Position numbers and translations under genes: made by a program. A stretch of DNA of 64,000 bases from Hyphomicrobium sp. (GTDB lineage: Bacteria > Pseudomonadota > Alphaproteobacteria > Rhizobiales > Hyphomicrobiaceae). How positions within the stretch are numbered: the stretch's first letter is position 1; each line of letters begins with the position of its first letter. The notes beneath the pieces are model-generated. The model worked only from the letters and a program-made list of their open reading frames with translations, had not been told where the DNA came from and did no database searches. The DNA is taken from the NCBI GenBank assembly GCA_013141015.1, contig JABFRT010000010.1, positions 1 to 64,000 of the forward strand. Reading direction: 5' to 3'. Below are positions 27,624 to 45,148 of the stretch, piece after piece.

Positions 27624-27672
27624 TCACAACTCATCAACCGCCAGCTTATGACACGAGCCAACGGATTTGCGC

Positions 27673-29163: not shown

Positions 29164-29828
29164 CAAATACATCAGCGCCGAACAATAACCGGATGCGTGT
29201 AGCGATCGTTGATGACCATCCCCTGTTCCGGGATGGCGTGGTTCTAACACTTGGCACAGATCCCGCTATTGAACTCGTCGGTCAGGGATCGACGGCCGAA
29301 CATGCAATCCAGATCGCCCAGGATATTCTGCCCGACGTGCTATTGCTCGACATCTCGTTGCCGGGTGGGGGTATCGAAGCGACGCGCGAAATCGGCCGGC
29401 TGTTCCCGTATATCAAGGTGATCATGCTGACGGCATCCGAGAACGAAGAGCACGTCTCGAGCGCGCTTGAAGCAGGTGCCCGCGGCTACATTCTCAAAGG
29501 CATCGGAGCGGCAGAGTTGATCCGCACCGTACATGCGGTTCACGAGGGAGAGAGTTACGTTTCGCCGCAACTTGCAGCCCGGTTGCTGACTACGTTGCGC
29601 ACGCGGCCGCCCGCTCCAGCGGTTGATGATCCGCTTCCGTCCCTGACGCGGCGCGAAGAGCAAATCCTTGACGCCGTTGCCAGCGGCAAGACCAACAAGG
29701 AAGTCGCCAAGCAGCTGACCATCAGCGAGAAGACGGTGAAGCACTACATGACCAACATCATGCACAAGCTTCAGGTCCGCAATCGCGTCGAAGCGGCCTT
29801 GGTCGCCAAGAAGAAATCTCTTACCTAA
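29160..29828 (+). CDS. NarL/FixJ-family response regulator
   Basis: A 222-residue regulator. Receiver domain residues about 12-130 with the acidic pair in VDDH, phosphoacceptor Asp64 in LLLDISLPGG and the conserved Lys in YILKGIG. The C-terminal LuxR-type helix-turn-helix is TRREEQILDAVASGKTNKEV followed by SEKTVKHYMTNIMHKL. It is translationally coupled to the kinase. Targets are unknown; the secretion and cupredoxin genes upstream, or the quinoprotein block downstream, are possible. Confidence 0.93.
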   Translation: MTNTSAPNNNRMRVAIVDDHPLFRDGVVLTLGTDPAIELVGQGSTAEHAIQIAQDILPDVLLLDISLPGGGIEATREIGRLFPYIKVIMLTASENEEHVSSALEAGARGYILKGIGAAELIRTVHAVHEGESYVSPQLAARLLTTLRTRPPAPAVDDPLPSLTRREEQILDAVASGKTNKEVAKQLTISEKTVKHYMTNIMHKLQVRNRVEAALVAKKKSLT

Positions 29829-29864
29829 CGCGCGCAGCGTTCTGGCCAAGCTGGCATGTGGCTC

Positions 29865-30530
29865 TCACGCCGATCCCGGCAAACTGTCCGGATCATCCGC
29901 CGCAAGGGCCGCTTCGAACAGCGTGTGTTCATGCAGCTTATGGAGAATATTGGTGAAGGTTGACGCTACGGTGCGCGGACTGACGCCGATGCTGGATGCA
30001 ATTTCGCCTACCGTCAGCCCCTGCCCGTAACGGCTAAGGATCTGTTCTTCCTTCGCCGTAATTGTCAGCCCACCTGGATCATCAGCCTCGCGCCAAGGTG
30101 CTGCAATCCCCTGCGGAGATACAAGCGCGCGCGCCAATCCCGCAGAGAACTGCGATTGACCATTGGCAATGGCCTGCAAGTCGCTGATCACACTGACGAG
30201 CGGCTGACCCTTGGTCATAAATCCGAAAGCACCTGAGGCAAACGCCGCGCTGACATGATGTTCGCTATCGTCGGACGACAGCACAACGGTCTTGACGTAA
30301 GGAGCCTCGCGATAGAGCTGGCGGACCGCCTCTAATCCACCGCCCGGCATCTGCATATCCAGAACGATCAAATCCGGCAAAAGCGCTTTGCCGCAATCGA
30401 TGGCGTCGCTGGCACTTGCCCCCCCATCCAAGACATCGAAGCCGCCGACGGACGCGAGCGCCCGCATCCAAGCCTGCCGGATCGCGGCGTGGTCATCAAA
30501 AATTGCGATGCGGATCAGTCGGCGCGCCAC
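29865..30530 (-). CDS. Second LuxR-type response regulator
   Basis: About 221 residues from the GTG at 30530, which has AAAGGA upstream; an in-frame extension to 30632 is open but lies outside the conserved fold. The receiver has FDDH, phosphoacceptor Asp58 in IVLDMQMPGG and Lys in FMTKGQP. The helix-turn-helix is weaker than that of its neighbour (AKEEQILSRYGQGLTVGEIA then SPRTVASTFTNILHKL). It faces the kinase/regulator pair tail to tail, with 36 bases between, and has no kinase of its own in the window, so the kinase may serve both. Confidence 0.88.
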   Translation of the reverse strand: MARRLIRIAIFDDHAAIRQAWMRALASVGGFDVLDGGASASDAIDCGKALLPDLIVLDMQMPGGGLEAVRQLYREAPYVKTVVLSSDDSEHHVSAAFASGAFGFMTKGQPLVSVISDLQAIANGQSQFSAGLARALVSPQGIAAPWREADDPGGLTITAKEEQILSRYGQGLTVGEIASSIGVSPRTVASTFTNILHKLHEHTLFEAALAADDPDSLPGSA

Positions 30531-30840
30531 CGGCAAAGATCCTTTCACCGGCAAAAGAGCCGGGCCCAGACCGTCAGCCGTGACACTCTCACGCCTGTTC
30601 ACTTGCGATTTCACTCCCGCGCAAAGCCCCACGCAAGCGCAGCGTTGCTCACTCGACGGACGATTTCAAGAGCCGGACACGCGTATCCTTAGCTCTAACT
30701 CAAAATAGAGTTACATCCGTGTTGCAAGGTGCTGAATTGGCACCTAGTGCGTGACATCTGACAGCAATTCATCGGACCAAAGTCTGGTCTACGCCGGGAT
30801 GTCGCAATGCAAAACGTTACAGGATGGTGGACCAGCCAGC

Positions 30841-30926: not shown

Positions 30927-31535
30927 CTATGGCTTTGTGGGTTCACGGCAGAACGCGGACGTGCCTTTAAGCGGCACTGGTACTGCCGGCACAAGTTTTC
31001 GGTCGCCCCATTCGACCCAGCCGTCCGTGCCTTCAGGAAACCAATAGATTTGGGTGTGCCCGAGCTTCGCCAGCCGCTGCACCACATTCCAGCCCATCCA
31101 GCAATCGGATTGGCAGAAAACGATGACCGGCTTTGCTGCATCGCCGTTGGTCAGCCGCAGCACGTTGGATTTGAGGTAGTTTTCAAAGCCGTCCTTCAAA
31201 CGGCCCTTGCCGACATCGGGAAGCCAGGTTGCGCCTGGGATCGTCTGATGCGGACGCGATAGGCGCCATTCGCCGGTTTGTGGATCGGCGCCTGCGCCCT
31301 CCGACGGCATCACGTCGAGCAAGACCGCTCCGGCTTTGATGAGCGCGTCTAACTTATCGCGATCAATCCGAGTGCCCCCCGGCACTGTTTCCGGTACAGC
31401 CGCGCGATAATGGGCGATGCGGTAACCCGTAATTGGATCAAAACTTTCAGCATCATTTGCGGCGCGTGCGGTGCCGCTGATGCAAAGAGCTGCGAGACAA
31501 CCTATGATGCGGTTCCGGACGGCCACAGCGATCAC
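30927..31535 (-). CDS. PQQ-dependent catabolism-associated CXXXCW protein
   Basis: A roughly 200-residue periplasmic rhodanese-like protein with a signal peptide (ending SGTARA). The hallmark FCQSDCWMGWN gives the CxxxCW signature for which the family is named. Members occur only near PQQ-dependent dehydrogenases; their exact job is not established, though a thiol or persulfide relay is plausible. A GTG at 31535 or 31526 could start it; AGGAG and GGAG stretches lie upstream. It follows the propeller gene by 31 bases on the same strand. Confidence 0.9.
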   Translation of the reverse strand: MIAVAVRNRIIGCLAALCISGTARAANDAESFDPITGYRIAHYRAAVPETVPGGTRIDRDKLDALIKAGAVLLDVMPSEGAGADPQTGEWRLSRPHQTIPGATWLPDVGKGRLKDGFENYLKSNVLRLTNGDAAKPVIVFCQSDCWMGWNVVQRLAKLGHTQIYWFPEGTDGWVEWGDRKLVPAVPVPLKGTSAFCREPTKP

Positions 31536-31566
31536 TCCACATTCTCCTGCACGCGGAAAAAGCGTC

Positions 31567-32556
31567 TCACGGCGCCGGGCGGACCGCCAGCCCCCACGGA
31601 TAACGGCCGACCTTGATCGACTTGATTGCCTTCAAACTCTTGGCGTCGATCACAGTCACATCGTTGGTGACGCCGTTGGTCGTGAACAGCAGGTCTTCCT
31701 CAGGCGTCAAATCAACGTGCCAAACGCGTTGACCCGTCACGATGTATTTGACCACCTCAGCCTTTTCAACATCTATGACGGCGACGCGCGCCGCAGGCCC
31801 AAGCGCCACGAACGCCGTCTTGCCGTCCTTGGTCAAGGTGATGCCGACAGGCTGGATATTTTCAGTTGGAATGCCGGCGATACTGAAGCTGATCTTCTTT
31901 TCAAGCCGGCGGCTGGCGACATCGATGATCGAAATCGTGCCGCCAATTTCCGACGAGACCCAAAGCTTGCGTCCATCGGGAGTGAACTCGGCGTGACGCG
32001 GACGCGGATCAACAAGAATGTTGGCGACCGTTTCCATCGATGCCGTGTCGATAATGTGGGCCATGTTGGTTGTCTCGGATGTCGTAACGAACAGCGTATC
32101 ATCGGGCGAGACAGCCATGCCTTCCGGTTCGACGCCGACATCGACCTGGCGCACAACCGCGCGACTTTGCAAATCAACGATGGTTGAAACGGCATCGTCC
32201 TCATTGGCGATATAGAGCCGCCTGCCGTCGCGCGACACAACGAACTGCTCGGGATCGCGGCCCGACGGCAGATCGTAAAGAAATTTGTCGCCGTCCGTGC
32301 TGTAGACCTGCACCGCGTCATTATCGCTGGCGCAAACGTAGAACTGCTTGTGGTCGCGGGAAAACGTGATACCGCGCGGACGTTTACCGACCTTGAACGT
32401 GCGCACAACTTCCAGCGCCACACTGTCTATCACCGAGACGGTGTTATCTTTTTCATTGGAAACATAGATCTCGTGGGCGCGAGCGGCCCCACCGCCGGGC
32501 GTCGTCGCCAGACTGGTGGCCGCAACCATCAGCAGCATTGCGGGTCGCGAAGCCAT
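31567..32556 (-). CDS. PQQ-associated YVTN beta-propeller protein
   Basis: A 329-residue secreted seven-bladed propeller. Signal peptide to about residue 27 (ending ARAHE). Blades repeat the YVTN pattern, for example IYVSNEKDNTVSVID, FYVCASDNDAVQVYS and LFTTNGVTNDVTVID. This is the PQQ-dependent catabolism-associated propeller family, found with quinoprotein dehydrogenases. GAGGG lies five bases before the ATG. The leader carries a terminator-like hairpin (32599-32640). Confidence 0.92.
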   Translation of the reverse strand: MASRPAMLLMVAATSLATTPGGGAARAHEIYVSNEKDNTVSVIDSVALEVVRTFKVGKRPRGITFSRDHKQFYVCASDNDAVQVYSTDGDKFLYDLPSGRDPEQFVVSRDGRRLYIANEDDAVSTIVDLQSRAVVRQVDVGVEPEGMAVSPDDTLFVTTSETTNMAHIIDTASMETVANILVDPRPRHAEFTPDGRKLWVSSEIGGTISIIDVASRRLEKKISFSIAGIPTENIQPVGITLTKDGKTAFVALGPAARVAVIDVEKAEVVKYIVTGQRVWHVDLTPEEDLLFTTNGVTNDVTVIDAKSLKAIKSIKVGRYPWGLAVRPAP

Positions 32557-32598
32557 TAGCCCTCACACAATTGAAGTGTTCTGTGTCACTCGCCATCC

Positions 32599-32640
32599 AA
32601 AAAAATGGGGCTTGGTTCAGCACAATCTGAATCAAGCCCC
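32599..32640 (-). terminator. Terminator-like hairpin in the leader of the propeller operon
   Basis: GGGGCTTGGTTCAG (32607-32620) pairs with CTGAATCAAGCCCC (32627-32640), 14 pairs with one wobble and a six-base loop. On the minus strand the stem is followed by seven T residues (32605-32599) after one A. It lies 43 bases upstream of the propeller ATG, and no minus-strand gene lies upstream to be terminated. It therefore looks like a leader attenuator within the 300-base divergent region. Confidence 0.7.
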
Positions 32641-32855
32641 GGCACCTTGGAGGAACCACGTGAACTGCCGCGCACGCTATCGGCAGGTGTCTGGCGGGGG
32701 AATAATACTCTGGTACAACGCGCAAATATGAATTTACGAGTTGGGTATTTTTCCCACTAATTGCCAATATGGCGGGTGTCCCGCGCCAACTACTCTAACC
32801 GGCAAAATGGGGCATGATCCCCATAAGACTAATAATCGGGAAGGAACGTCTATCG

Positions 32856-33290
32856 ATGCGCAATCGCTTACTTCTAGCGGCTGTTTTAGCTTGCCTCGGC
32901 TTTGCTTCACTTCTACCACAAGGCGCGTCCGCCCATGGCGACGTGACCCCCCAACCCATCGACACTGCCGGCCTCGACGCTCTCAAAGAGGGCGAATGGC
33001 TGAGCGAAAACCCCTATCGCGGCAACGAAAAAGCCAAGGAAATCGGCGCATCCGGCTACAACCAGAATTGCGCGCGCTGCCACGGCCTGGAAGTCATTTC
33101 GGGTGGCCTCGCACCTGATTTGCGCTATCTGGAACTTGGCAAGACTGGCGACGAGTGGTTCATCCAGCGCATCCGCCACGGCGCCAAGAAGCCGGACGGC
33201 TCAACGATGATGCCGGGCTTCGAGGGCACCTTCAACCAGGAAGCCATGTGGGCCATCCGCACCTATATTGAATCGGTTCATCAAGAATGA
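32856..33290 (+). CDS. pedF: Cytochrome c-550 PedF
   Basis: About 144 residues with a signal peptide (MRNRLLLAAVLACLGFASLL, ending GASA) and one heme site, CARCH. The axial Met is probably in STMMPGF. The family is the c-550 associated with PQQ alcohol dehydrogenases of the ped type, the electron acceptor of the quinoprotein. AAGGA precedes the ATG at 32856. It is the first gene of the plus-strand operon and overlaps the next by four bases. Confidence 0.9.
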   Translation: MRNRLLLAAVLACLGFASLLPQGASAHGDVTPQPIDTAGLDALKEGEWLSENPYRGNEKAKEIGASGYNQNCARCHGLEVISGGLAPDLRYLELGKTGDEWFIQRIRHGAKKPDGSTMMPGFEGTFNQEAMWAIRTYIESVHQE

Positions 33291-34153
33291 ACCTGCACGT
33301 CACGATGCAGGCCATTCGAGCGCCCATGATATTATCATGCGCGCTCGTTTGCGTGGCCTCGACGCTGGCCAGTGCCCGGCCACTCGACGATGTTGTTGCA
33401 TCAAAGGTTTTGAAGGTTGTCGCCTACGATGACAACGCACCATTTTCCTTTGCTGAGAATGGCGAGGTTAAAGGCATAGACATCGACCTAGGCCGCGCGG
33501 TGGCCAAAGAACTCGGTGTTAACGCCGAATTCATTCTGCGGATGCCGGGTGAAAAGGTCGATGATGATCTTCGCGTCAACGTCTGGAAGGGACCGCTGAC
33601 GGGTGGTGGCGTCGGTGACGTGATGCTGCATGTGCCGACCGACCGCGAACTCGCCATGCGCAACAAGGAAGCAGTGATCGGCAACCCCTACTTTCAGGAA
33701 ACCATTGCGCTTGCTATTGACCCGAAGCGCATTGCCAAGGGCAGCACGTTTGCAGCCTTCAAAACGCACAAGATCGGCGTCAAAATGGCGACAGTCTCGG
33801 ACTACTTTTTGATGACCTTCGAAGACGGCGCGCTGATCAACAACGTCGCTCACCACGTCAAGGGCGTGGCCGGGGCTAAAGAGTTTCTGGCTGGGGAAAC
33901 AGCAGCCCTGATGGGCGTGCGTTCAGAAACTGAGGGGCTGCTGCATAGTTTAGGCAGCAAAGCTGAATTCATAACCCCATCAATGGACGGGATTGTCCGC
34001 ACGCAGTGGGTGATTGGAACAGCCGTCGATGAAAAGAGCCGGGACCTTGGCTATGCTATCGGCGCGGCTGTGACAAAATTCAGAGAAACCGGCGAACTCA
34101 CGCGGATCTTTGCCAAACATGGCGTCACCTACTTACCGCCACCGGGAAGTTGA
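33287..34153 (+). CDS. Quinoprotein-associated periplasmic binding protein (MoxJ/XoxJ-like)
   Basis: A 288-residue family 3 solute-binding-protein fold. After a signal peptide (ending TLASA) it reads VLKVVAYDDNAPFSFAENGE and GIDIDLGRAVAKELG, the start of the type II periplasmic binding fold. No ABC permease lies nearby. Proteins of this kind sit beside PQQ dehydrogenases, where MoxJ/XoxJ are thought to help mature or activate the enzyme. The ATGA overlap with pedF implies translational coupling. Confidence 0.9.
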   Translation: MNLHVTMQAIRAPMILSCALVCVASTLASARPLDDVVASKVLKVVAYDDNAPFSFAENGEVKGIDIDLGRAVAKELGVNAEFILRMPGEKVDDDLRVNVWKGPLTGGGVGDVMLHVPTDRELAMRNKEAVIGNPYFQETIALAIDPKRIAKGSTFAAFKTHKIGVKMATVSDYFLMTFEDGALINNVAHHVKGVAGAKEFLAGETAALMGVRSETEGLLHSLGSKAEFITPSMDGIVRTQWVIGTAVDEKSRDLGYAIGAAVTKFRETGELTRIFAKHGVTYLPPPGS

Positions 34154-34188
34154 TATAAAAGCGGCGGCAAAACAGGAGAACGGCACCA

Positions 34189-35001
34189 ATGCTTCGCATC
34201 TTAGCCGCCGCACTTCTGGGACTCGTCCCAGCGCACTTGGTTTACGCTGAAACCGCGGCCGACCCGCTTCAGTCTCCTGTCTGGAATGATCTGGCGCGAA
34301 AGACCTTCGGCGATGCGGCCGTAGTTTTCGACGGGCGTGTGAAAGTCACGGTCCCAGCAATCGTCGAAAATCAGGCGCAAGTTCCAGTCAGCGCCGATGC
34401 GCGCGGCCTCGCCAACGTCGAACGGCTGATTGTTTTGACCGATCTCAACCCCATTCAACACGTTCTGACGATCACGCCCGCGCAGTCCAAGGCCGAAGCC
34501 TACATCTCGTTTAGATTGAAAATCGAACAAGCCACACCGGTGCGCGCCGCGGCATTGACATCCGATGGCGTGTGGCACGTCGGCGGCGTGTTTTTGGAAG
34601 CAGCGGGCGGGGGATGTTCGTCGCCCGCGATGGCCCGCGGCGACGCCGACTGGACCGCAACGCTTGGCAATGCACAAGGCAAAGTCTGGCGCCAAGCCGA
34701 TGGCACAGCCCGGTTGCGGTTGCGCGTGCGCCACCCGATGGATACGGGCCTCGCCAAAGATAACACGCCCGCATTTTTTATCGAAAAATTCGACGTGAAA
34801 GGCGCCTCGGGCGATCCCCTTGCAACGGTTGAAATGTTTGAACCGGTCGCCGAAGATCCAACCATCACGCTGAGCATCAAGCCGGCAGCGTCGGACGCAA
34901 GCATCAACATCGACGGGCGGGACAACAACGGCAACATCTACCGCTCGGTCGTGCCTGCACCGTGGAACCAAAGTGCACTGACAACCACAAGCGGCCATTG
35001 A
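34189..35001 (+). CDS. Quinoprotein-associated SoxYZ-like carrier 1
   Basis: A 270-residue exported fusion of SoxY-like and SoxZ-like domains. Signal peptide ends VYAE. The carrier Cys is in AAGGGCSSPA near residue 144, at the end of the SoxY-like part, and corresponds to the GGCGG swinging arm of SoxY. The SoxZ-like part follows (LRVRHPMDTGLAKDN). In Sox systems this Cys carries the sulfur intermediate. AGGAG lies upstream. The stop overlaps the next start (TGATG). Confidence 0.92.
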   Translation: MLRILAAALLGLVPAHLVYAETAADPLQSPVWNDLARKTFGDAAVVFDGRVKVTVPAIVENQAQVPVSADARGLANVERLIVLTDLNPIQHVLTITPAQSKAEAYISFRLKIEQATPVRAAALTSDGVWHVGGVFLEAAGGGCSSPAMARGDADWTATLGNAQGKVWRQADGTARLRLRVRHPMDTGLAKDNTPAFFIEKFDVKGASGDPLATVEMFEPVAEDPTITLSIKPAASDASINIDGRDNNGNIYRSVVPAPWNQSALTTTSGH

Positions 35002-36011
35002 TGCCAGTAACGATCGACACTCCCCCAGACCCGCACGATCCCAGCGATCCACAGCGCCGCCAGCTATTGCGCCTAGCAGCGGCAGCGTTTGTAGCGCCGC
35101 TATTGCCGATGTTTACGGCGCACGCCGCACCTCTCACCTATGACCTGAAGCCGGTCAAGCTTGATGACGGGGCATGGATGATCGGTGGCCGGCAAGAGGC
35201 GATCACCTTCGAGAATGGCGGCGCCATCGCCAACATCACGATCCTTGATTCAAGCGAGGGCGCGATCATCATCGACACCGGGCCATCGCGCCGCTTTGGC
35301 GAGGAACTGGCAACGCTGGCGCGCACGCTGACCGGTAAAGATATCGCGCGGGTTTATTTGACCCATTTCCACCCCGACCACGTTTTCGGAAATCAGGGCT
35401 TTGAAGCGGGTAAAATTGCAGCGCCCGCCGGCGTGATCAAAGGCTTGCAGGAGTTGGGCAACGGGTTCTCGGACGCGATGTATTACATCGCGCGCGACTG
35501 GATGCGCGGCACCGAAGTGATTCTTCCTTCAGTGACGGTCACAGAAGGTATTGAAGACATCGGCGGCCGGCGTCTGCGTCTTCTGCCACGCGCCGGACAT
35601 ACTGGCGCGGACCTGGCGCTTTTTGAGGAAAAGAGCGGCCTATTGATTGCCGGAGACCTCGCATTCCTTGATCGGGCGCCAACAACGCCCCACGCCAACT
35701 TGGCCACGTGGCGAAACACTCTTGATGAACTTTCAGCAATCGACTGCAAGCTGCTCGTGCCCGGCCACGGCCCTGCCGAGAGCAGTACCCGCGCGATCAC
35801 ACAAACCCGCGATTGGCTGACGGCCATCGAGAGCATCATCGTCCGTTGTTTTGAACAGGGCCTCGATATGACCGAAGCGATGCAGGCGGAATTACCTGCG
35901 GGTTTCGCTTCGATTGCGCTGGCGCGATATGAGTTCACGCGGTCGGTAATGCATCTTTATCCGGCGCTCGAAGCGTCGAAATTGCCCGGCGTTGGCAAGC
36001 GCTCCAATTAG
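35001..36011 (+). CDS. SoxH-like quinoprotein relay zinc metallohydrolase
   Basis: A 336-residue metallo-beta-lactamase-fold protein. RRQLLRLAAAAFVAPLLP suggests a Tat-type signal. Metal ligands are visible in THFHPDH, AGHTGAD, AGDLAF and PGHGP. This is the SoxH-related family found in quinoprotein clusters, a probable thiol-ester or persulfide hydrolase acting on the SoxYZ-like carrier; the true reaction is unknown. Its ATG overlaps the stop of the carrier gene by one base. Confidence 0.92.
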   Translation: MPVTIDTPPDPHDPSDPQRRQLLRLAAAAFVAPLLPMFTAHAAPLTYDLKPVKLDDGAWMIGGRQEAITFENGGAIANITILDSSEGAIIIDTGPSRRFGEELATLARTLTGKDIARVYLTHFHPDHVFGNQGFEAGKIAAPAGVIKGLQELGNGFSDAMYYIARDWMRGTEVILPSVTVTEGIEDIGGRRLRLLPRAGHTGADLALFEEKSGLLIAGDLAFLDRAPTTPHANLATWRNTLDELSAIDCKLLVPGHGPAESSTRAITQTRDWLTAIESIIVRCFEQGLDMTEAMQAELPAGFASIALARYEFTRSVMHLYPALEASKLPGVGKRSN

Positions 36012-36193
36012 ATCATAGAACTTTCGTATTGGAATTGTTCATTGCATTTCGCAGCTTATTTGTCTTTCGGCTCATAGACTAATTGTCAATTCGCAGGCGT
36101 ATGCCAGTCGAGATAGCTTCCGTCCGGGCAAACTTCCCTAGCGTTCCTTATAAAAATGGAAGCCGCCCCCAGGAAATAATCAAGGAGACGCCT

Positions 36194-37957
36194 ATGAAGA
36201 GTTTAAAGTGGCTCGCCACTGCGAGCGTACTTGCGCTTTCAGTCTGCGCAGCACCGGCATTCGCCGACGTTTCGATTGAAGACATTGTCAACGACGCCAA
36301 GACCACAAACGACGTTGTGACCGCTGGTCTCGGTGGTCAGGCACAGCGCTACAGCCCGCTCAAAAGCGTCAACAAGGACAACGTCGGCGGTTTGGTGCCG
36401 GCTTGGGCCATGTCGCTCGGCGGCGAAAAAATGCGCGGCCAGGAATCACAGCCGCTGGTCAAAGACGGCGTGATGTACATCACCGGTTCTTACAGCCGCA
36501 TCTGGGCCATCGACGTCAAGACCGGCCGCGAACTCTGGCAGTATGACCACCGCCTGCCTGAAGGCATTCTGCCATGCTGCGACGTCGTCAATCGCGGCGC
36601 AGCCCTCGTCGGCAAGACCGTCGTATTCGGCACGCTTGACGCGAAGCTCGTCTCACTTGATCAGAAGACCGGCAAGGTCGTCTGGACCAAGGAAATCGAC
36701 GATTTCAAGGGCGGCTATTCCTACACGGCGTCGCCGCTGATTGTCCCGTCAAAGGCCCACGGTCCGCTGATCGTCACCGGCGTCTCGGGCGGCGAATTCG
36801 GTATCGTCGGCCGCGTCGAAGCCCGCAAAGCTGAAACAGGCGATCTCGTCTGGTCGCGTCCGACCATCGAAGGTCATGTCGGCACGCTGAACGGCAAGCC
36901 GTCGACGATGACCGGCGACAAAGTCAACGCATCTTGGCCGGGCGACCTTTGGAAGACCGGTGGCGGTGCGACGTGGCTTGGCGGCACCTACGATTCCGAC
37001 ACCAACCTGATCTTTATGGGCACGGGTAACCCTGCTCCGTGGAACAGCCACATGCGCCCGGGCGACAACAAGTGGTCGTGCTCGCGTATCGCGCTTGATC
37101 CGGAAACGGGCGACATCAAGTGGGGCTATCAGACCACGCCGAACGACGGCTGGGATTTCGATGGCGTCAACGAAGTTGTAGCGTTCGATGCTGACGGCAA
37201 GAAGCTTGCTGCCACCGCCGACCGTAACGGCTTCTTCTACGTGCTTGACCGCACCAACGGCAAATATGTCAACGCGACGCCGTTTGTTGAAAAGATCACT
37301 TGGGCCAAGGAAATCGGCAAAGACGGCCGTCCGGTCTACAACGCCGACAACCGCCCAGGCGACCCGAAGGGTTCCAAGGACGGCAAGAAGGGCACTGAAG
37401 TCTTCGCAATTCCGAGCTTCCTCGGCGGCAAGAACCAGCAGCCGATGGCCTACAGCCCTGACACCAAGTTGTTCTATGTTCCGGCCAACGAGTGGGGCAT
37501 GAACATCCACAACGAACCGGTGACGTACAAGAAGGGCGCGGCTTACCTCGGCGCTGGCTTCACCATCAAGCCGACGTTTGAAGACCACATTGGCGCGCTG
37601 AAAGCGATCGACCCGGCAACCGGCAAGATCGTTTGGCAGAACAACAACAAGGCACCACTGTGGGGCGGCGTTCTCACAACCGGTGGCGGCTTGGTGTTCT
37701 ACGGCACGCCAGAAGGCGAACTGAAAGCCGTCGACGACGCGACCGGCAAGGAGCTTTGGAGCTTCAACACGGGTTCGGGCGTCGTGGCGCCGCCGATCAC
37801 CTGGGAACAGGATGGCGAGCAGATGGTCACCGTAATTTCGGGCTGGGGCGGCGCTGTTCCTCTGTGGGGTGGTGAAGTTGCCAAGACCGTTGCCAACCTG
37901 AACCAGGGCGGCATGGTCTGGACGTTCAAGCTGCCTAAGAAGGTGGCCGCAAAGTAG
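36194..37957 (+). CDS. PQQ-dependent methanol/ethanol-family dehydrogenase, predicted lanthanide type
   Basis: A 587-residue periplasmic eight-bladed quinoprotein with signal peptide (ending APAFA). Adjacent Cys128-Cys129 (LPCCD) form the ring disulfide above PQQ. Predicted metal ligands are Glu201 (GGEFG), Asn279 (GTGNPAPWN), Asp321 and Asp323 (WDFDGVNE). The second Asp replaces the Ala of calcium-type MxaF and marks lanthanide-dependent XoxF/ExaF/PedH enzymes. There is no C-terminal cytochrome domain, so PedF probably takes the electrons. The ATG at 36194 follows AAGGAG; the longer frame from 36083 has no signal peptide. Substrate is not certain. Confidence 0.93.
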
Positions 37958-38034
37958 GCCCTACCAAGAAATTCCTACAGTGCGCGGGGCGGACCACTTG
38001 TCCCGCGCGTCTGTCGTCCCCACTCAAACTTCAA

Positions 38035-38063
38035 GGCGAGCCCGATGACGGCTCGCCTTTTTT
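38035..38063 (+). terminator. Strong intrinsic terminator after the quinoprotein gene
   Basis: GGCGAGCC (38035-38042) and GGCTCGCC (38050-38057) form a perfect eight-pair stem with a seven-base loop, followed by TTTTTT. A second GC-rich stem (GCGCGGG with CCCGCGC, 37982-38008) precedes it. It ends the pedF-to-dehydrogenase unit. Confidence 0.9.
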
Positions 38064-38112
38064 ATTGACGGTACGGTAGGGTGAGCAACGCTAATGCGAA
38101 GGACTGCGAACC

Positions 38113-38925
38113 GTGTGGATACGAACCTTGGCAGCATTGATCACCTTGGTTGCGATGGCCAGCCTGGCCGTCAATGTGCGCGGCGATGAACCGGCCGCCG
38201 ACACAGCCCTGGTGATTGCCGTCGATGTGTCTCAATCCGTCGATGCCGCGCGCTATAAGATACAGATGGACGGCATAGCGTCCGCTTTCGAAGACCCGGG
38301 CGTGATTGCCGCAATAACCGGTGGAACACAGGCTCAGATCTTGATCACGCTCGTCACCTGGTCCGACACGGCTGAGACCGCGCTGCCGTGGACTCTCATT
38401 CGCTCACAAAGTGATGCGCTGAGTGTTGCGGCTGTGATCCGCGCTTTGCCGTCCCGCACCGGCGAATTCACCTGTATGGCCCGCATGCTGCGCGCGCTGC
38501 AATCGGGAGCACTTCTGCAGATTCCGATGAAGGCCAATCGCGTGGTGATCGATGTCTCGGGCGACGGCATCGACAATTGCGACGACACCCCGGCAACGGG
38601 GATTGAGCGCGACCAGATCGTCGCCGAGGGCGGCACGATCAACGGCCTGCCGATCATTCTTGCAGGCGAAAACGATCAGATCGTCGGCTCTGGCGCCTAC
38701 CGCAAGCCGGGCTACGACATTAACAGCCTCAGCCCTGACAAAGACACGACCACCCTTGATACGTGGTACAGGACCCACGTCATCGGAGGGCGCGGCGCGT
38801 TCATAATGCCCGCTAAAGGCTACGAGGATTTCGGGCGCGCCTTCCGCCAGAAATTCGTCACCGAAGTCAGCGCATATACCGTTCCCCCACCCAGAAAATC
38901 ACACAAGATTGTTGCAAATCAATAA
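38113..38925 (+). CDS. DUF1194 von Willebrand factor A-like protein
   Basis: A 270-residue exported protein of family DUF1194 with a VWA fold. The metal-ion adhesion site begins IAVDVSQSVD (DxSxS), followed later by a Thr/Asp-bearing loop and SGDGIDNCDD. The N-terminus is a signal peptide (LAALITLVAMASLAVN). The start is GTG. The gene lies between the terminator of the dehydrogenase and the second carrier gene. VWA proteins often help assemble metalloenzymes, which would fit a quinoprotein cluster, but no function is proven. Confidence 0.85.
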   Translation: MWIRTLAALITLVAMASLAVNVRGDEPAADTALVIAVDVSQSVDAARYKIQMDGIASAFEDPGVIAAITGGTQAQILITLVTWSDTAETALPWTLIRSQSDALSVAAVIRALPSRTGEFTCMARMLRALQSGALLQIPMKANRVVIDVSGDGIDNCDDTPATGIERDQIVAEGGTINGLPIILAGENDQIVGSGAYRKPGYDINSLSPDKDTTTLDTWYRTHVIGGRGAFIMPAKGYEDFGRAFRQKFVTEVSAYTVPPPRKSHKIVANQ

Positions 38926-39089
38926 CTTGCGACGCGCCCTACACCGCATGAGAAAAATTCCTGCAACGACGCGTAACGTGATCCGCGTTGCCAGCGAATA
39001 CGATATACTAATGACCAATGTTGCCGTTGCTGCACCGCGCCATCCGCGTTGGGCAGTGACCGTTTGAGATAACGCTGACGAGGACCGCC

Positions 39090-39914
39090 ATGACCGTTTT
39101 GACCCGCCTCTCATCCCTTCGCGCCCTTGTTGCGGGTGCGGCGCTGGCCGCTGGAATAACGTTCGCTGTCCCGGCCCACGCTGAGGATAGCGACATTTGG
39201 AAAGGCTTGCACAAGGATGTGTTTGGCTCTCGCGAGCTGCTCGACGGTGCGGCCGTGATGACTCTCGACGCTCCCATCCGTGCCGAGGACGCAGCTGTTG
39301 TGCCGCTGGCTGTTAAGATGCCGGCCAGCTTCGCCAGTACCGTGACCAAGCTGACGCTGGTGGTCGACAAGAACCCGATGCCGGTGGTTGGCACGTTTAC
39401 TTACGGACCCGCAGCCGGCAAAGGCGACCGGATGCTTTCGACGCGCATCCGCATGGATCAATACTCGGACGTGCGGGCCATCGCTGAAACGGCGGATGGT
39501 AAGTTGTACATGATCTCGCGCTTCGTGAAGGCCTCCGGCGGTTGCTCCGCGCCGGCCGCCAAGGATGCAGAGGAAGCCGCCAAGACACTTGGCAAGATGC
39601 AGATTAAGACAGCCATTGCCAAGGCGGCCGATGGCCTGACACCCGAAGCGCAGATCGCGATCAAGCACCCAAACACGACGGGCATGCAGATGGATCAGCT
39701 GACCGGCCTCTATGCACCCGCCCGGTATATCAACAGAATCGAAGTCAAGACCGGCGCCAACCTCGTGTTTACGGTTGAAGGCGGCATTTCGTTCAGCGAA
39801 GACCCCAACATCCGCTTCAGCTACGATGGTAATCCATCGGACCCGATGGAAGTGAAGGCGGAAGATTCCAACGGCACCAAGTTCGCCGGCAAATCGGCGC
39901 CAAGCCAGTCATAA
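39090..39914 (+). CDS. Quinoprotein-associated SoxYZ-like carrier 2
   Basis: A 274-residue second member of the fused SoxYZ-like family. Signal peptide ends PAHAED. The carrier Cys is in KASGGCSAPA near residue 153. The SoxZ-like part has IKHPNTTGMQMDQ. It is clearly diverged from the copy at 34189, so this is an old duplication, not a recent one. GAGGA precedes the ATG. A terminator follows, then soxC. Confidence 0.9.
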   Translation: MTVLTRLSSLRALVAGAALAAGITFAVPAHAEDSDIWKGLHKDVFGSRELLDGAAVMTLDAPIRAEDAAVVPLAVKMPASFASTVTKLTLVVDKNPMPVVGTFTYGPAAGKGDRMLSTRIRMDQYSDVRAIAETADGKLYMISRFVKASGGCSAPAAKDAEEAAKTLGKMQIKTAIAKAADGLTPEAQIAIKHPNTTGMQMDQLTGLYAPARYINRIEVKTGANLVFTVEGGISFSEDPNIRFSYDGNPSDPMEVKAEDSNGTKFAGKSAPSQS

Positions 39915-39936
39915 GTGGCGTTCCCATGGCAATAAC

Positions 39937-39975
39937 AACGGCGCGTCAGGCTCTGCCTCACGCGCCGTTTCTTTT
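39937..39975 (+). terminator. Intrinsic terminator after carrier 2
   Basis: AACGGCGCGT (39937-39946) and ACGCGCCGTT (39960-39969) form a perfect ten-pair stem with a 13-base loop, followed by TCTTTT. It lies about 20 bases before the soxC ATG, so soxC either relies on readthrough or has a promoter overlapping this region. Confidence 0.85.
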
Positions 39976-39990
39976 GACGGGTCGTGCCTG

Positions 39991-41280
39991 ATGACAACCG
40001 AACTCACAAGCGATGACTTACAGCCTGTTGCAGGCGGCGGGTTGCTGCATCGCCGGCTCTTTTTGAAAAGCGGGTTGGTGCTGGCAACCGCAGGTGCGGC
40101 GGGCCATGCCGCAGCTGAGCCTCCCGCAAAGTTGAGCGAAGACCTCGCGTCGCCATCCTGGATGCACGCGCCCGGCGCGCCGTTTACGCCTTACGGCAAG
40201 CCATCGAAACACGAAGCGCGCGTGATGCGCTCAATCGGCGCCAACAAGGATCTTCCCACCAACGGCGTGTCGTGGACACCGCTTGAAGAACTGGAAGGCA
40301 TCATTACGCCAAGTGGTCTGCACTTTGAACGCCACCATAACGGCGTGCCGGAAATTGACCCGGCCCAGCATCGCCTTGTCATTCACGGGCTCGTCAAACA
40401 GCCGCTGATGTTCACAGTCAACAGCCTGCTGCGCTACCCGATGCAGTCGCACCTGATTTTCATTGAATGCGGCGGCAACAGCAATGCTGGCTGGCACGAA
40501 GAACCGATCCAACGTCCACTTGGCGGCTTCCACGGATTGGTCTCGTGCAGCGAATGGACAGGCGTGCCTCTGGCGATCCTGTTCGATCAAGCGGGCATCG
40601 ACCCGAAGGCAACATGGGTGATTGCGGAAGGCGCCGACGGCGCGGTGATGAACGTATCGCTGCCACTCAAAAAGCTGATGGACGACGCGATTGTCGCGCT
40701 CTATCAGAACGGCGAACGCATTCGCCCTGAGAACGGCTATCCGCTACGTCTTGTGATCCCGGGATTTGAAGGCGTCACCAACGTAAAATGGCTGCGCCGC
40801 CTGCAGCTGACGACGGAACCGGTGATGGCGCGCAACGAAACTGCGAAATACACTGAACTTTTGCCGAGCGGAAAGGCACGCCAGTTTACGTTCGAGATCG
40901 AGGCCAAATCGCTGATCACGTCGCCGTCGGCTGGGCAGAAAATGTTCGGGCCGAACATTTACGAGATCAAGGGCCTCGCCTGGACTGGCCGCGGCAAGGT
41001 GGCCAAAGTCGAAGTCTCGGCCGACGGCGGCCAGTCGTGGGCGGAAGCCGCGCTGCAGGAGCCAGTGCTATCGCGCTGCTTCACGCGGTTCCGCATGCCG
41101 TGGAACTGGGATGGCAAGCCAACCGTCTTGAAAAGCCGGGCAACAGATGAAACCGGATACGTTCAGCCCGAGCGCGAGATGCTCGTCAAAGAACGCGGAC
41201 GCAACGGCTACTTCCACTACAACGCCATACTCTCTTGGGGCATCGACGAAGACGGAGCGATCAGCCATGTCTACGCGTAA
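39991..41280 (+). CDS. soxC: SoxC-like sulfite dehydrogenase molybdenum subunit
   Basis: A 429-residue sulfite-oxidase-family molybdoenzyme. HRRLFLKSG is a Tat-type signal. The molybdopterin domain carries the Mo-ligand Cys, probably in SHLIFIECGGNSNAGW; YPLRLVIPGFEGVTNVKWL and the C-terminal dimerisation domain (GLAWTGRGKVAKVEVSADGG) follow. In Sox systems SoxCD oxidises the sulfane sulfur bound to SoxY. Here it lies next to fused SoxYZ-like carriers but without soxA, soxX or soxB. The soxD ATG overlaps its end by 14 bases. Confidence 0.92.
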   Translation: MTTELTSDDLQPVAGGGLLHRRLFLKSGLVLATAGAAGHAAAEPPAKLSEDLASPSWMHAPGAPFTPYGKPSKHEARVMRSIGANKDLPTNGVSWTPLEELEGIITPSGLHFERHHNGVPEIDPAQHRLVIHGLVKQPLMFTVNSLLRYPMQSHLIFIECGGNSNAGWHEEPIQRPLGGFHGLVSCSEWTGVPLAILFDQAGIDPKATWVIAEGADGAVMNVSLPLKKLMDDAIVALYQNGERIRPENGYPLRLVIPGFEGVTNVKWLRRLQLTTEPVMARNETAKYTELLPSGKARQFTFEIEAKSLITSPSAGQKMFGPNIYEIKGLAWTGRGKVAKVEVSADGGQSWAEAALQEPVLSRCFTRFRMPWNWDGKPTVLKSRATDETGYVQPEREMLVKERGRNGYFHYNAILSWGIDEDGAISHVYA

Positions 41281-41803
41281 CGCCTGCGCTGTCTTCGCCA
41301 TTTTATTTTCCGCAAATGCCGCGTTCGCGGCCAGCGCGCATCCGGCGCCCCGCCTCGGCACTCCAATGACGGCCGAAGATGCCACAAAATGGGATCTGTC
41401 GATCTTTCCGGATGGCCGTGGTTTGCCACCCGGCAAAGGAGTGGCCAAGGATGGCAAGGTCATTTTCGACACTCAGTGCGCCAGTTGCCACGGCGACGGC
41501 GGACGCGGCGCTACGGCAGAGGAATTGGTCAGTATCGAACCGCAATCGTTGAAAGAAGAAGCCGCCAGCAAGGCCATTGGACCCTATTGGCCTTACGCCA
41601 CGACGGTATTTGACTTTATCCGCCGCTCGATGCCGGCCGGTGCTCCGGGATCGCTGTCAGCCGATGAACTCTATGCCGTCACCGCCTATCTGTTGGCCGC
41701 CAACAAAGTCATCGGCGACACGGACGAAATGAACGCAAAGTCGCTTCCCGCCGTCAAAATGCCCAATCGCGATGGCTTTGAGTGGGTCGGCGTGAAGAAG
41801 TAA
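41267..41803 (+). CDS. soxD: SoxD-like cytochrome c subunit
   Basis: A 178-residue periplasmic cytochrome c with signal peptide (NACAVFAILFSANAAFAAS) and a single heme site CASCHGDG. The axial Met is probably in SMPAGAPG. Canonical Paracoccus SoxD is about twice as long and binds two hemes, so this is a short monoheme form. The start at 41267 lies within the soxC coding sequence (14-base overlap), a sign of tight coupling. It takes electrons from SoxC. Confidence 0.9.
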   Translation: MSTRNACAVFAILFSANAAFAASAHPAPRLGTPMTAEDATKWDLSIFPDGRGLPPGKGVAKDGKVIFDTQCASCHGDGGRGATAEELVSIEPQSLKEEAASKAIGPYWPYATTVFDFIRRSMPAGAPGSLSADELYAVTAYLLAANKVIGDTDEMNAKSLPAVKMPNRDGFEWVGVKK

Positions 41804-41975: not shown

Positions 41976-43193
41976 TTGGATAGCGTACTGATCATTGGAG
42001 CGGGTGCTGCAGGTTCGGTGACGGCGCAGAAGTGCGCCATGAACCGCGACGTTTTCAAGAAGGTCCACCTTGCCTCGCGCCGCTTGGAGAGCTGCGAGAA
42101 GGTTGCCAAGCAGTGCAAGACCAAAATCGATATTTCGCAGGTTGACGCCGACAACGTCGCGGCGACCGTCAAACTGTTGAAGAAGGTCAAACCCGACCTG
42201 GTCATCAACATGGCCCTGCCATATCAAGATTTGCCAATCATGGATGCGTGCCTGGAAGCCGGCGTGCATTACATGGACACGGCCAACTACGAACCGCGCG
42301 ATGTCGCCAAGTTCACCTACAAGTGGCAGTGGCCGTATCATTCGAAATATAAGGCCAAGGGCATCATGGCCATTCTCGGCTGCGGCTTCGACCCCGGCCA
42401 GTCGAACATCTATTGCGCCTATGCGCAGGAGTTTCTGTTCGATGAAATCGAAACCATCGACATCATCGACTGCAACGACGGCAGCCACGGCAAAGCATTC
42501 GCAACCAACTTCAATCCAGAAATTAATCTGCGCGAAGTCACCCAGCGCGGCAAATACTGGAAAGACGGCAAGTGGATCGAGATCGATCCGCTGTCGATCA
42601 ACTGCATGATCGACTATCCGGAAGTCGGGCCGCGCAAGTCGTACCTTATCTATCACGAAGAAGAAGAAAGCCTTGTTAAGAACATCAAAGGTTTGAAGCA
42701 GATCCGCTTTTGGATGACGTTCTCGGACAACTACATCAAGCACCTTGATGTGTTGCAGAACGTCGGCATGACGCGCATCGATCCCGTCATGTACAAGGGC
42801 AACCCGGTCATCCCGATGGAGTTCCTGAAGGAGCTGCTGCCGCCGCCGTCGTCGCTCGGCAAGAATTACACCGGCCGCACGTCGATCGGCGTGATTTTCA
42901 CCGGCAAGAAAAACGGCAAAGCCAAGCGCACGCTGATCTATAACGTCTGCGAACACGCCCAATGCTACAAGGAAACTGGCGCGCAAGCCGTATCCTACAC
43001 AACCGGCGTGCCACCCGTCGTCGGTGCGATGATGCTGTTCAAGGGCGCGTGGGGACCAAAGCCCGGCGTATTCAATGTCGAACAATTGCCATCGAAGCCG
43101 TTCATGGATGAAATCGGCAACCAGGGCTTGCCCTGGCACGTCAAGGATCTCAAAGTCAGCGACCAGAAGGACCTGTTCGCAGTCAAAACTTAA
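41976..43193 (+). CDS. Carboxynorspermidine synthase (saccharopine dehydrogenase family)
   Basis: A 405-residue NADPH-dependent enzyme. VLIIGAGAAGSVTAQKCA is the N-terminal Rossmann nucleotide site; NMALPYQDLPIMDACLEAGV, YMDTANYEPR and CGFDPGQSN are typical of carboxynorspermidine/carboxyspermidine dehydrogenases. The reaction joins aspartate semialdehyde with diaminopropane or putrescine. The start is TTG, with AGGAG seven bases upstream. The decarboxylase for the next step lies two genes downstream, which supports the assignment over saccharopine dehydrogenase. Confidence 0.9.
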   Translation: MDSVLIIGAGAAGSVTAQKCAMNRDVFKKVHLASRRLESCEKVAKQCKTKIDISQVDADNVAATVKLLKKVKPDLVINMALPYQDLPIMDACLEAGVHYMDTANYEPRDVAKFTYKWQWPYHSKYKAKGIMAILGCGFDPGQSNIYCAYAQEFLFDEIETIDIIDCNDGSHGKAFATNFNPEINLREVTQRGKYWKDGKWIEIDPLSINCMIDYPEVGPRKSYLIYHEEEESLVKNIKGLKQIRFWMTFSDNYIKHLDVLQNVGMTRIDPVMYKGNPVIPMEFLKELLPPPSSLGKNYTGRTSIGVIFTGKKNGKAKRTLIYNVCEHAQCYKETGAQAVSYTTGVPPVVGAMMLFKGAWGPKPGVFNVEQLPSKPFMDEIGNQGLPWHVKDLKVSDQKDLFAVKT

Positions 43194-43202
43194 TGACTTA
43201 GC

Positions 43203-43231
43203 GCTCCCCGTTGCATAAGCCAGCGGGGAGC
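43203..43231 (+). terminator. Hairpin after the synthase gene
   Basis: GCTCCCCG (43203-43210) pairs with CGGGGAGC (43224-43231) across 13 bases, ten bases after the stop. No T run follows, so it is a weak terminator candidate or a messenger-stabilising stem. Confidence 0.45.
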
Positions 43232-43275
43232 ACGCCATCACTGAGACGCATGCAGCGACAACGAACGGGCGGACC

Positions 43276-43737
43276 ATGATTTTGCGACGCGCTGCGGCAA
43301 CTGTCGTCATACTCAGCACCACACTTGCCGGGTGCTCGGCGTCGAACCCGCCAAGCCTGTCGGAGGCTGCAAAGCCGTCTGCCGTTGGCACCACGCCGAC
43401 TCTCGATAACGCCACCCGCGCCAGCCCTGTCGTTGCGGCGCGGCCAGCGCGGGTCTACGTGATGACCTCTGTCGATGCCGCCTGCCGGTCATTGGACGCG
43501 CCTGAAATCACGATCACGCGCCCGCCCACCAAAGGCGACGTTTCGTTCAAGCCGGGCCAGCAAACAACGCTTGCCGCAACGGCTAAGGGCACTTGTATTG
43601 GCCGCACAGCAACGGGTACTGGAATTTACTATACGGCGCGTGCCGGACACACGGGCATAGATCAGTTCGCAATTGAGGCGAGAGCCGCCACCGGCGAAGT
43701 TGCAACGCGCGTCTTTGAAGTCAAAATTTCCGAATAA
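43276..43737 (+). CDS. Small hypothetical lipoprotein
   Basis: A 153-residue protein with a lipoprotein signal; the lipobox is LAGC near residue 20 (STTLAGCSAS). The rest is a Pro/Thr/Ala-rich linker followed by a compact beta-rich domain with two Cys (AACRSLDAPEI and GTCIGRTATG), perhaps a disulfide, ending in a Cadherin-like IDQFAIEARAATGEV segment. No family function is recognised. It lies between the two polyamine genes, possibly by chance. Confidence 0.7.
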   Translation: MILRRAAATVVILSTTLAGCSASNPPSLSEAAKPSAVGTTPTLDNATRASPVVAARPARVYVMTSVDAACRSLDAPEITITRPPTKGDVSFKPGQQTTLAATAKGTCIGRTATGTGIYYTARAGHTGIDQFAIEARAATGEVATRVFEVKISE

Positions 43738-43900
43738 GCATCAGCATTTGGCGCGGCTTAGCGCCACCGCACCCCTTCCGTCGACAGCCCGGTGATGCCA
43801 TATAACCGCAACCGGCAGCGGGCGCTGACGTGCGGCGATAGCGCTGCGTGTTTGATCACCCGCCCGGCCATTGCTTTTGCCGACAGGATCACGCCCCTCC

Positions 43901-45067: not shown

Positions 45068-45148
45068 CCGCCGCTTCGTGCCACACTTTTGAACCCGCTT
45101 CTCAACACCATATCTCTAATATCCCCGTAATTTGAACCGAATGCACAC

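Follow-up and report, generated by a model that had tools for sequence, protein, structure and literature searches.

A fused SoxYZ-SoxC-SoxD cassette beside a ped-type alcohol dehydrogenase operon in a Hyphomicrobium genome

Introduction

Discussions of SoxCD usually treat it as a component, with SoxB, of thiosulfate oxidation. Truncated Sox sets have nevertheless been listed in methylotrophs. Passages of the papers concerned report SoxYZ and SoxCD without SoxAXB in Methylococcus, in a role called not clear (PMC8527097), SoxYZ and SoxCD without SoxAB in Methylophaga, for which thiosulfate use was judged impossible (PMC6548844), and SoxC/D with soxYZ in Methylotetracoccus (PMC6553558). The passages on Methylococcus and Methylophaga are gene lists, with no analysis of a cassette, of clades or of co-occurrence. 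Here, we describe a cassette of a fused SoxYZ carrier, SoxC and SoxD in a 64,000-nucleotide stretch of Hyphomicrobium sp. (the window; contig JABFRT010000010.1, here C35, of a 3.94-Mb genome that is 97.6% complete), where it lies beside an operon for a pyrroloquinoline quinone (PQQ)-dependent alcohol dehydrogenase.

That SoxYZ-like carriers are associated with quinoproteins is already in print (passages of PMC12997753, PMC11582611 and PMC11237559). In the first of these, rhodanese-, SoxYZ- and SoxH-like helpers recur with lanthanide- and PQQ-dependent dehydrogenases, and maturation and PQQ protection are offered as hypotheses for them; the second judges the gene set to serve PQQ-dependent alcohol catabolism. 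The SoxYZ-S2/S4 fusions of lucinid symbionts resemble the carriers described here in lying beside soxH and genes for PQQ alcohol/methanol and formate dehydrogenases, but the passages of PMC11237559 contain no SoxCD cassette. In the literature that we searched (titles, abstract openings and passages, with few subscription papers), we did not find the fused YZ-SoxC-SoxD cassette, the separate SoxC clade with its molybdenum (Mo) loop, or the nesting of carriers among quinoprotein genomes.

Results

A first-pass annotation of the window had listed eleven genes at 30927-41803 and joined them in one chemistry. All eleven are present, with open frames and family matches in NCBIfam and Pfam profile searches (paired scores are given as bits/model cut-off). 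However, they very probably make up two units that lie side by side, unit 1 at 30927-37957 and unit 2 at 39090-41803.

Unit 2 is a Sox cassette of fused SoxYZ, SoxC and SoxD that belongs to a methylotroph-rich branch, in a genome without SoxB over the cut-off. It runs on the forward strand and begins with the second fused carrier of the window, YZ2 (39090-39914; TIGR04557, 266.6/140; arm SGGCSAP). Next comes a SoxC-like molybdoenzyme (39991-41280; TIGR04555, 595.6/420, an equivalog cut-off; Mo loop ECGGNSNAGW), which is the one SoxC match in the genome. A SoxD-like one-haem cytochrome c (41147-41803) directly follows soxC, and its inferred start near 41267 overlaps the soxC end.

We compared unit 2 with the best 80 of 327 SoxC relatives, many of them from metagenome-assembled genomes (MAGs); more than 5 kb of upstream sequence is shown at 62/80 of these loci and less than 5 kb at 18/80. 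SoxD adjoins SoxC at 77 of the 80, and the remaining 3 stop at contig edges. Each of the 77 SoxD-matching frames has a single haem motif. In a SoxC tree of 121 rows, built by quick search with support only from the Shimodaira-Hasegawa-like approximate likelihood ratio test (SH-aLRT), 83 rows grouped with a support of 99: the 80 loci, the window and two repeats (L141 and L143, which repeat L020 and L021). Apart from this window-type group stood 25 rows (SH-aLRT 98) that include all 22 SoxB-linked SoxC proteins. A third set (82) comprised 11 further sequences from the order with no SoxB nearby, and L146 and L176 fell outside all three groups. A second group of SoxCD pairs (L140, L142, L144, L145, L147 and L148, which include two genomes of the same genus) has no SoxB in the fetched stretch and belongs to a clade distinct from both the SoxB-linked and the window-type SoxC. 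The nearest SoxC relatives of the window are Hyphomicrobium MAGs, and the window-type clade is rich in genera that we take to be methylotrophs and methanotrophs.

The clades also differ at the Mo loop, which reads CGGNSN in window-type proteins and CAANsG in canonical ones. Gly161 and Gly162 are invariant in the 83 rows, whereas Ala reaches 92% at each position in 24 canonical-clade rows. SorA and chicken sulfite oxidase have a Tyr within AYxMNG and a second Arg beyond the Mo cysteine; in alignments, both are replaced in the window SoxC, and likewise in the solved SoxC 2xts. The Tyr and this Arg presumably have active-site roles, and their replacement fits a bound rather than a free substrate.

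The cassette shares with canonical Sox systems (soxAX-YZ-B-CD) a SoxC over the SoxC cut-off, an adjacent SoxD and a carrier with a GGC arm. It is unlike them in that SoxY and SoxZ are fused in a single carrier whose arm is internal and in that SoxC is of another clade with another Mo loop. Moreover, in line with the first-pass annotation, no SoxB is over the cut-off: the best match in the genome reached 105.6 bits against a cut-off of 550. SoxA had no match in the genome either, but none of the control genomes matched, although the model does recognise the SoxA of L131 (242.5/110). We rejected the idea that unit 2 is a remnant of a canonical Sox system, since its SoxC lies outside the SoxB-linked clade and no SoxB is over the cut-off.

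A fused carrier lies near SoxC at 21/80 loci. At L062 (9974-19802), one run contains SoxC, SoxD, SoxH (TIGR04559, 399.2/280), a fused carrier, a SoxH-like gene, an FdhB-type gene and formate dehydrogenase alpha (771.3/666.25). At L083 (1761-8317), SoxC and SoxD are followed by a flavin mononucleotide reductase-like gene and then by a carrier-SoxH pair on the opposite strand, with a NuoEF-like (FdhB-type) gene beside it. The view that fused SoxYZ and SoxCD form a recurring set was thus borne out; SoxH belongs to the run itself at L062 and lies a short way off at L083.

We then counted these genes across genomes. Fifty genomes were hand-picked from the 80 loci: 21 with an adjacent carrier, L030, which is cut at soxC, and 28 others. 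A fused carrier over the cut-off was present in 49/50, including 27 of the 28 others, and a PQQ dehydrogenase in 48/50. SoxB was over the cut-off in 17/50 (11/30 and 6/20) and in 4 of the 21 genomes with an adjacent carrier. The other 33/50 had none over the cut-off; the MAGs among them come without completeness figures, and absence may reflect incompleteness. The genome-wide co-occurrence of fused carrier, SoxCD and PQQ dehydrogenase, which the first-pass annotation had put forward as a check, therefore holds.

In a sample of 199 genomes from the order, 60 contained an open-frame fused carrier and 70 a PQQ dehydrogenase, and all 60 lay inside the 70; the carrier was found in 0/129 genomes without the dehydrogenase. 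These sets were compiled by hand, and the PQQ genomes G009 and G140 were added from E-values to meet the tally of 70. Seven genomes were dropped in which a TIGR04557 match over the cut-off ran through stop codons, which we took to mean that soxY and soxZ are separate genes there. No PQQ dehydrogenase was over the cut-off in any of these seven; if they are kept, the count becomes 60/67. The carrier was also present in 19/53 genomes of the order with other SoxC proteins. The 60/60 nesting and the 49/50 count together indicate that the carrier goes with the quinoprotein and that the window-type SoxC clade goes with the carrier, but relatedness and shared methylotrophy confound both: the counts come from related genomes, which are not independent, and PQQ rates are confounded with methylotrophy.

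The tie between carrier and quinoprotein apparently runs through alcohol or C1 oxidation, because carrier-SoxH pairs of methylotrophs also adjoin formate dehydrogenase genes. An FdhB-type (NuoEF-like) gene lies beside the pair in 11/20 methylotroph loci (L237-L256, some cut short) and beside the carrier in 0/20 loci of the order (L257-L276). The NCBIfam matches of this gene are NuoF/NuoE models under the cut-off. Its assignment to formate dehydrogenase is therefore based on the alpha subunit, which was checked at L062 only, and on PMC11237559, passages of which place soxYZ-S4 with fdhAB and xoxF and suggest a carbon role.

All 82 carrier rows (80 excluding the window copies) have a single arm cysteine, which is of the GGC type in 78. 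An AlphaFold model of YZ2 (mean predicted local distance difference test score 79.7, from 21 rows) predicts a SoxY and a SoxZ domain with a low-confidence loop between the two, directly following Cys152; its best PDB matches were SoxY chains of 2ox5/2oxg, and SoxZ chains matched too. SoxCD-linked carriers are scattered over several branches of the carrier tree and nest there among carriers that have SoxH or different genes beside them. For example, the Methylibium carrier (SoxCD) groups with the Methyloversatilis-type carrier (SoxH), with a support of 80 (quick tree, SH-aLRT).

The genome contains four fused SoxYZ proteins over the cut-off: two in the window, one on contig C7 and one on C10. 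The C7 copy lies in a region (L017, 4817-17064) with two PQQ dehydrogenases, MoxJ, a pentapeptide-repeat protein and a c550-like protein. The C10 copy (L018, 8506-9336) has an altered arm, ASCSAPP versus GGCSAP, and lies beside a nuclease-domain gene; no SoxH or PQQ match was found in the 19-kb stretch around it. A separate soxY-soxZ pair on C20 (L016, 6701-9061) is divergent from a flavoprotein with weak similarity to sulfide:quinone reductases (103.7 bits, cut-off 525), and queries for SoxA, SoxX and SoxB gave no match within the 19 kb around it.

Unit 1, by its gene order and family matches, is a ped-type PQQ alcohol dehydrogenase operon of known kind with the usual helpers. Five genes lie on the forward strand in ped-type order. 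The first two are cytochrome c-550, a PedF equivalog (32814-33290; TIGR04494, 183.4/122), and a periplasmic solute-binding-like protein in the PedG position (33287-34153; PF00497, SBP_bac_3, 43.5/26.4). The latter had been labelled MoxJ/XoxJ-like, a label that we could not maintain: it is over the cut-off only for SBP_bac_3, with no TIGR03870 or TIGR03871 match at E <= 0.001, whereas the MoxJ at L017 (4817-5986) served as a positive control for these models (353.9/258.1). The third gene encodes a fused SoxYZ-like carrier, YZ1 (34189-35001; TIGR04557, 216.9/140; arm GGGCSSP). The fourth encodes a SoxH-like hydrolase of the metallo-beta-lactamase fold (34962-36011; TIGR04558, 358.2/300; HFHPDH..GH..GD..GH motif; inferred start near 35001), and the fifth is the dehydrogenase (36083-37957; TIGR03075, 752.1/480; inferred start near 36194). 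Divergent from these, on the reverse strand, are a CXXCW-motif quinoprotein helper (30927-31535; TIGR03865, 180 bits, cut-off 128; motif here CQSDCW) and a PQQ-catabolism-associated beta-propeller (31567-32556; TIGR03866, 479.5/287.3). A sensor kinase and two LuxR-type response regulators (27667-30632) directly precede unit 1, as expectable for a ped/exa-type regulatory set.

The five gene kinds and their order are identical to those of the Pseudomonas putida KT2440 ped cluster in the table passage of PMC12997753 (PP_2675 pedF, PP_2676 pedG, PP_2677 SoxYZ-like, PP_2678 SoxH-like and PP_2679 pedH), and both clusters have a CXXCW/rhodanese-type helper. Unlike that cluster, the CXXCW and propeller genes here are divergent, and a DUF1194 gene and the SoxCD cassette come after; SoxCD does not appear in the table passage. 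The best solved relatives of the dehydrogenase are 6zcv/6zcw (about 810 bits), listed as quinoprotein ethanol dehydrogenase, which we take to be PedH of P. putida KT2440. The dehydrogenase keeps the adjacent cysteines (CC pair) and a WDFD (DxD) motif that is presumably of the lanthanide type. It is probably lanthanide-dependent.

Between the units, at 38033-38059 on the forward strand, is a terminator-like hairpin of 10 pairs followed by TTTTATT, 3' of unit 1. The relative L020 has a matching hairpin (8076-8099), between the PQQ dehydrogenase gene and the DUF1194 gene as in the window. Because terminator-like sites are not commoner than in shuffles (window, 4 versus 2.4 +/- 1.5; L020, 2 versus 1.9), we base the proposed terminator on the 10-pair hairpin at a matching place in the two relatives. 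A sigma-70 promoter scan between the units found 0 sites (shuffle mean, 0.8). The gene between the hairpin and yz2 encodes a DUF1194 protein like von Willebrand factor A domains (38113-38925, forward strand; PF06707, 171.4/27), and only L020 among the 80 loci has it at this position.

Downstream of unit 2, on the forward strand, lie a carboxynorspermidine synthase-like gene, a small gene, nspC and pepN (41976-47797). Carboxynorspermidine synthase follows the cassette in 9/12 Hyphomicrobiaceae-type loci (L020-L029, L035 and L036), as do nspC and pepN where the contig reaches; L022 and L036 are without it, and L029 is cut. A PQQ dehydrogenase match alongside SoxC was found only at L020 among the 80 loci, of which 62 show more than 5 kb upstream. 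The polyamine-gene neighbours, the hairpin and this single PQQ dehydrogenase led us to reject a single 11-kb locus with one chemistry, and the earlier claim that SoxCD is tied to the quinoprotein operon was not supported. Measured against the refuting condition given with the first-pass annotation, co-location thus fails, whereas co-occurrence across whole genomes holds, since only L020 has an adjacent PQQ dehydrogenase and 48/50 genomes contain one. On the simplest interpretation, the yz-soxCD-polyamine neighbourhood is the older of the two, and one lineage gained a ped-type operon next to it.

Discussion

The job of unit 2 is probably the processing of sulfur held on the carrier protein. The one cysteine in the arm of the fused carrier would bind reactive sulfur (sulfide, sulfane or sulfite). 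SoxC would oxidise this sulfur in place and hand electrons on, by way of the one-haem SoxD, to c-type cytochromes. The oxidised group would be removed not by SoxB but by a metallohydrolase of the SoxH type. Instead of supporting growth on organosulfur compounds, the set may serve to keep nucleophilic sulfur off PQQ enzymes, or to return the carrier that works for them to its active state. Sulfur is suggested by the family to which the enzyme belongs, by the rhodanese-like helper and by the arm cysteine. It is also suggested by two published statements: that SoxB could be replaced by SoxH in Sulfurimonas sp. CVO (cited in passages of PMC11237559), and that, in H. denitrificans, thiosulfate with auxiliary donors blocks growth on methanol but not on formate, probably through PQQ-sulfur adducts (passages of PMC12997753). 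PQQ protection is named in the latter passages as one hypothesis. We hold the chances about even that SoxCD acts on the fused carrier. The full sequence, from oxidation by SoxCD through release by SoxH to protection of PQQ enzymes or restoration of the carrier, is our tentative preference, at slightly short of an even chance, and PQQ protection or carrier repair as the purpose is possible but distinctly less sure.

A number of points weigh against this proposal. No carrier was found beside SoxCD at 59/80 loci (18 loci have less than 5 kb upstream), and unit 2 itself lacks a SoxH gene. Across the order, the association between carrier and SoxC is not significant (22/56 versus 38/143, p 0.088). 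The FdhB-type neighbours in methylotrophs suggest a role with carbon. In addition, passages of PMC11237559 deem a Sulfurimonas-type role of SoxH improbable for Thiodiazotropha and judge a direct role of SoxYZ fusions in sulfur metabolism unlikely, and random barcode transposon sequencing in P. putida without lanthanides gave minimal helper effects (passage of PMC12997753). Finally, a passage of PMC4433239 interprets a soxCD pair next to the methanesulfonate genes of Filomicrobium as a sulfite dehydrogenase.

The Filomicrobium pair illustrates a different explanation, that SoxCD works on its own in the periplasm as a sulfite dehydrogenase that clears sulfite, and that the adjacent carrier is a bystander or binding partner. 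The loci without a carrier fit this, NCBIfam gives the family (TIGR04555) the name sulfite dehydrogenase, and the CGGNS loop is closer to CSGNS of SorA than to canonical CAANs. However, the Tyr and second Arg of SorA and sulfite oxidase are replaced, as in 2xts, and the carrier is present in 49/50 such genomes and lies next to SoxCD in at least two branches of the carrier tree. We consider a free-standing enzyme unlikely.

We next consider a relay of carbon, in which the carrier cysteine binds an aldehyde from the PQQ dehydrogenase, a thioester forms, and SoxH, which shares the metallo-beta-lactamase fold with glyoxalase II, hydrolyses it to an acid (e.g., formate) for formate dehydrogenase, while SoxCD only repairs sulfur-blocked carriers. 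The confinement of open-frame carriers to PQQ-dehydrogenase genomes, with no tie to SoxC in the order, favours such a relay, as do the FdhB-type genes in 11/20 methylotroph loci and at L062 and L083, the alpha subunit that comes next at L062, and the carbon role suggested for soxYZ-S4. No thioester-forming enzyme was identified, however; the FdhB-type gene is beside the carrier in none of the 20 loci of the order, with the alpha subunit checked at a single locus; and the CXXCW helper is called rhodanese-like, which suggests sulfur. To our knowledge, no enzyme of the sulfite-oxidase family oxidises carbon, which we also count against the relay. It is improbable.

At L062, a single run extends from SoxCD over SoxH and the carrier to the formate dehydrogenase genes, alpha subunit included, and this suggests a broader formulation. 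Fused SoxYZ and SoxH, with this SoxCD clade in methylotrophs, might be a periplasmic thiol-carrier system of PQQ-based alcohol or C1 oxidation. The carrier cysteine would hold an intermediate (e.g., a thiohemiacetal that becomes a formyl thioester), SoxH would hydrolyse it, formate dehydrogenase would take the product, and SoxCD would clear sulfur-blocked carriers. We regard this as speculative and quite improbable.

Passages of PMC12997753 propose that such helpers aid maturation, and the carrier, CXXCW protein and SoxH could assist in forming the disulfide between adjacent cysteines, or in stabilising the cofactor, in lanthanide- and PQQ-dependent dehydrogenases. The CC pair of the dehydrogenase here is consistent with this. 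However, it leaves SoxCD without a role, and according to the same passages the disulfide also occurs in calcium enzymes and in P. aeruginosa, which is without these helpers. This explanation is very doubtful.

The least probable is the organosulfur pathway of the first-pass annotation. In it, the substrate of the quinoprotein is an organosulfur compound, and the resulting thiol or sulfur is taken up by the carriers, oxidised by SoxCD and freed by SoxH. All parts do lie within 11 kb with no SoxB over the cut-off, and a passage of PMC11237559 cites Koch and Dahl for a link between the organic and inorganic sulfur metabolism of Hyphomicrobium. However, a PQQ dehydrogenase adjoins SoxC at only 1/80 other loci, a hairpin separates the units, and the solved structures closest to the dehydrogenase carry the name quinoprotein ethanol dehydrogenase. 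We found no support for the proposed substrate, with SBP56/MtoX absent from the genome of the window (over the Pfam cut-off in 22/51 genomes, at about 580 bits in 3 and at 138-180 in the rest).

The SoxC clade described here occurs mostly in genomes without SoxB over the cut-off, yet nearly always together with a fused carrier. If the thiol-carrier formulation were true, Sox parts would have been recruited from sulfur to carbon metabolism. The cassette in Hyphomicrobium names a carrier-enzyme pair that is open to purification and testing, and the tight tie between open-frame fused SoxYZ and PQQ dehydrogenases in one order makes the role of the quinoprotein helpers directly testable.

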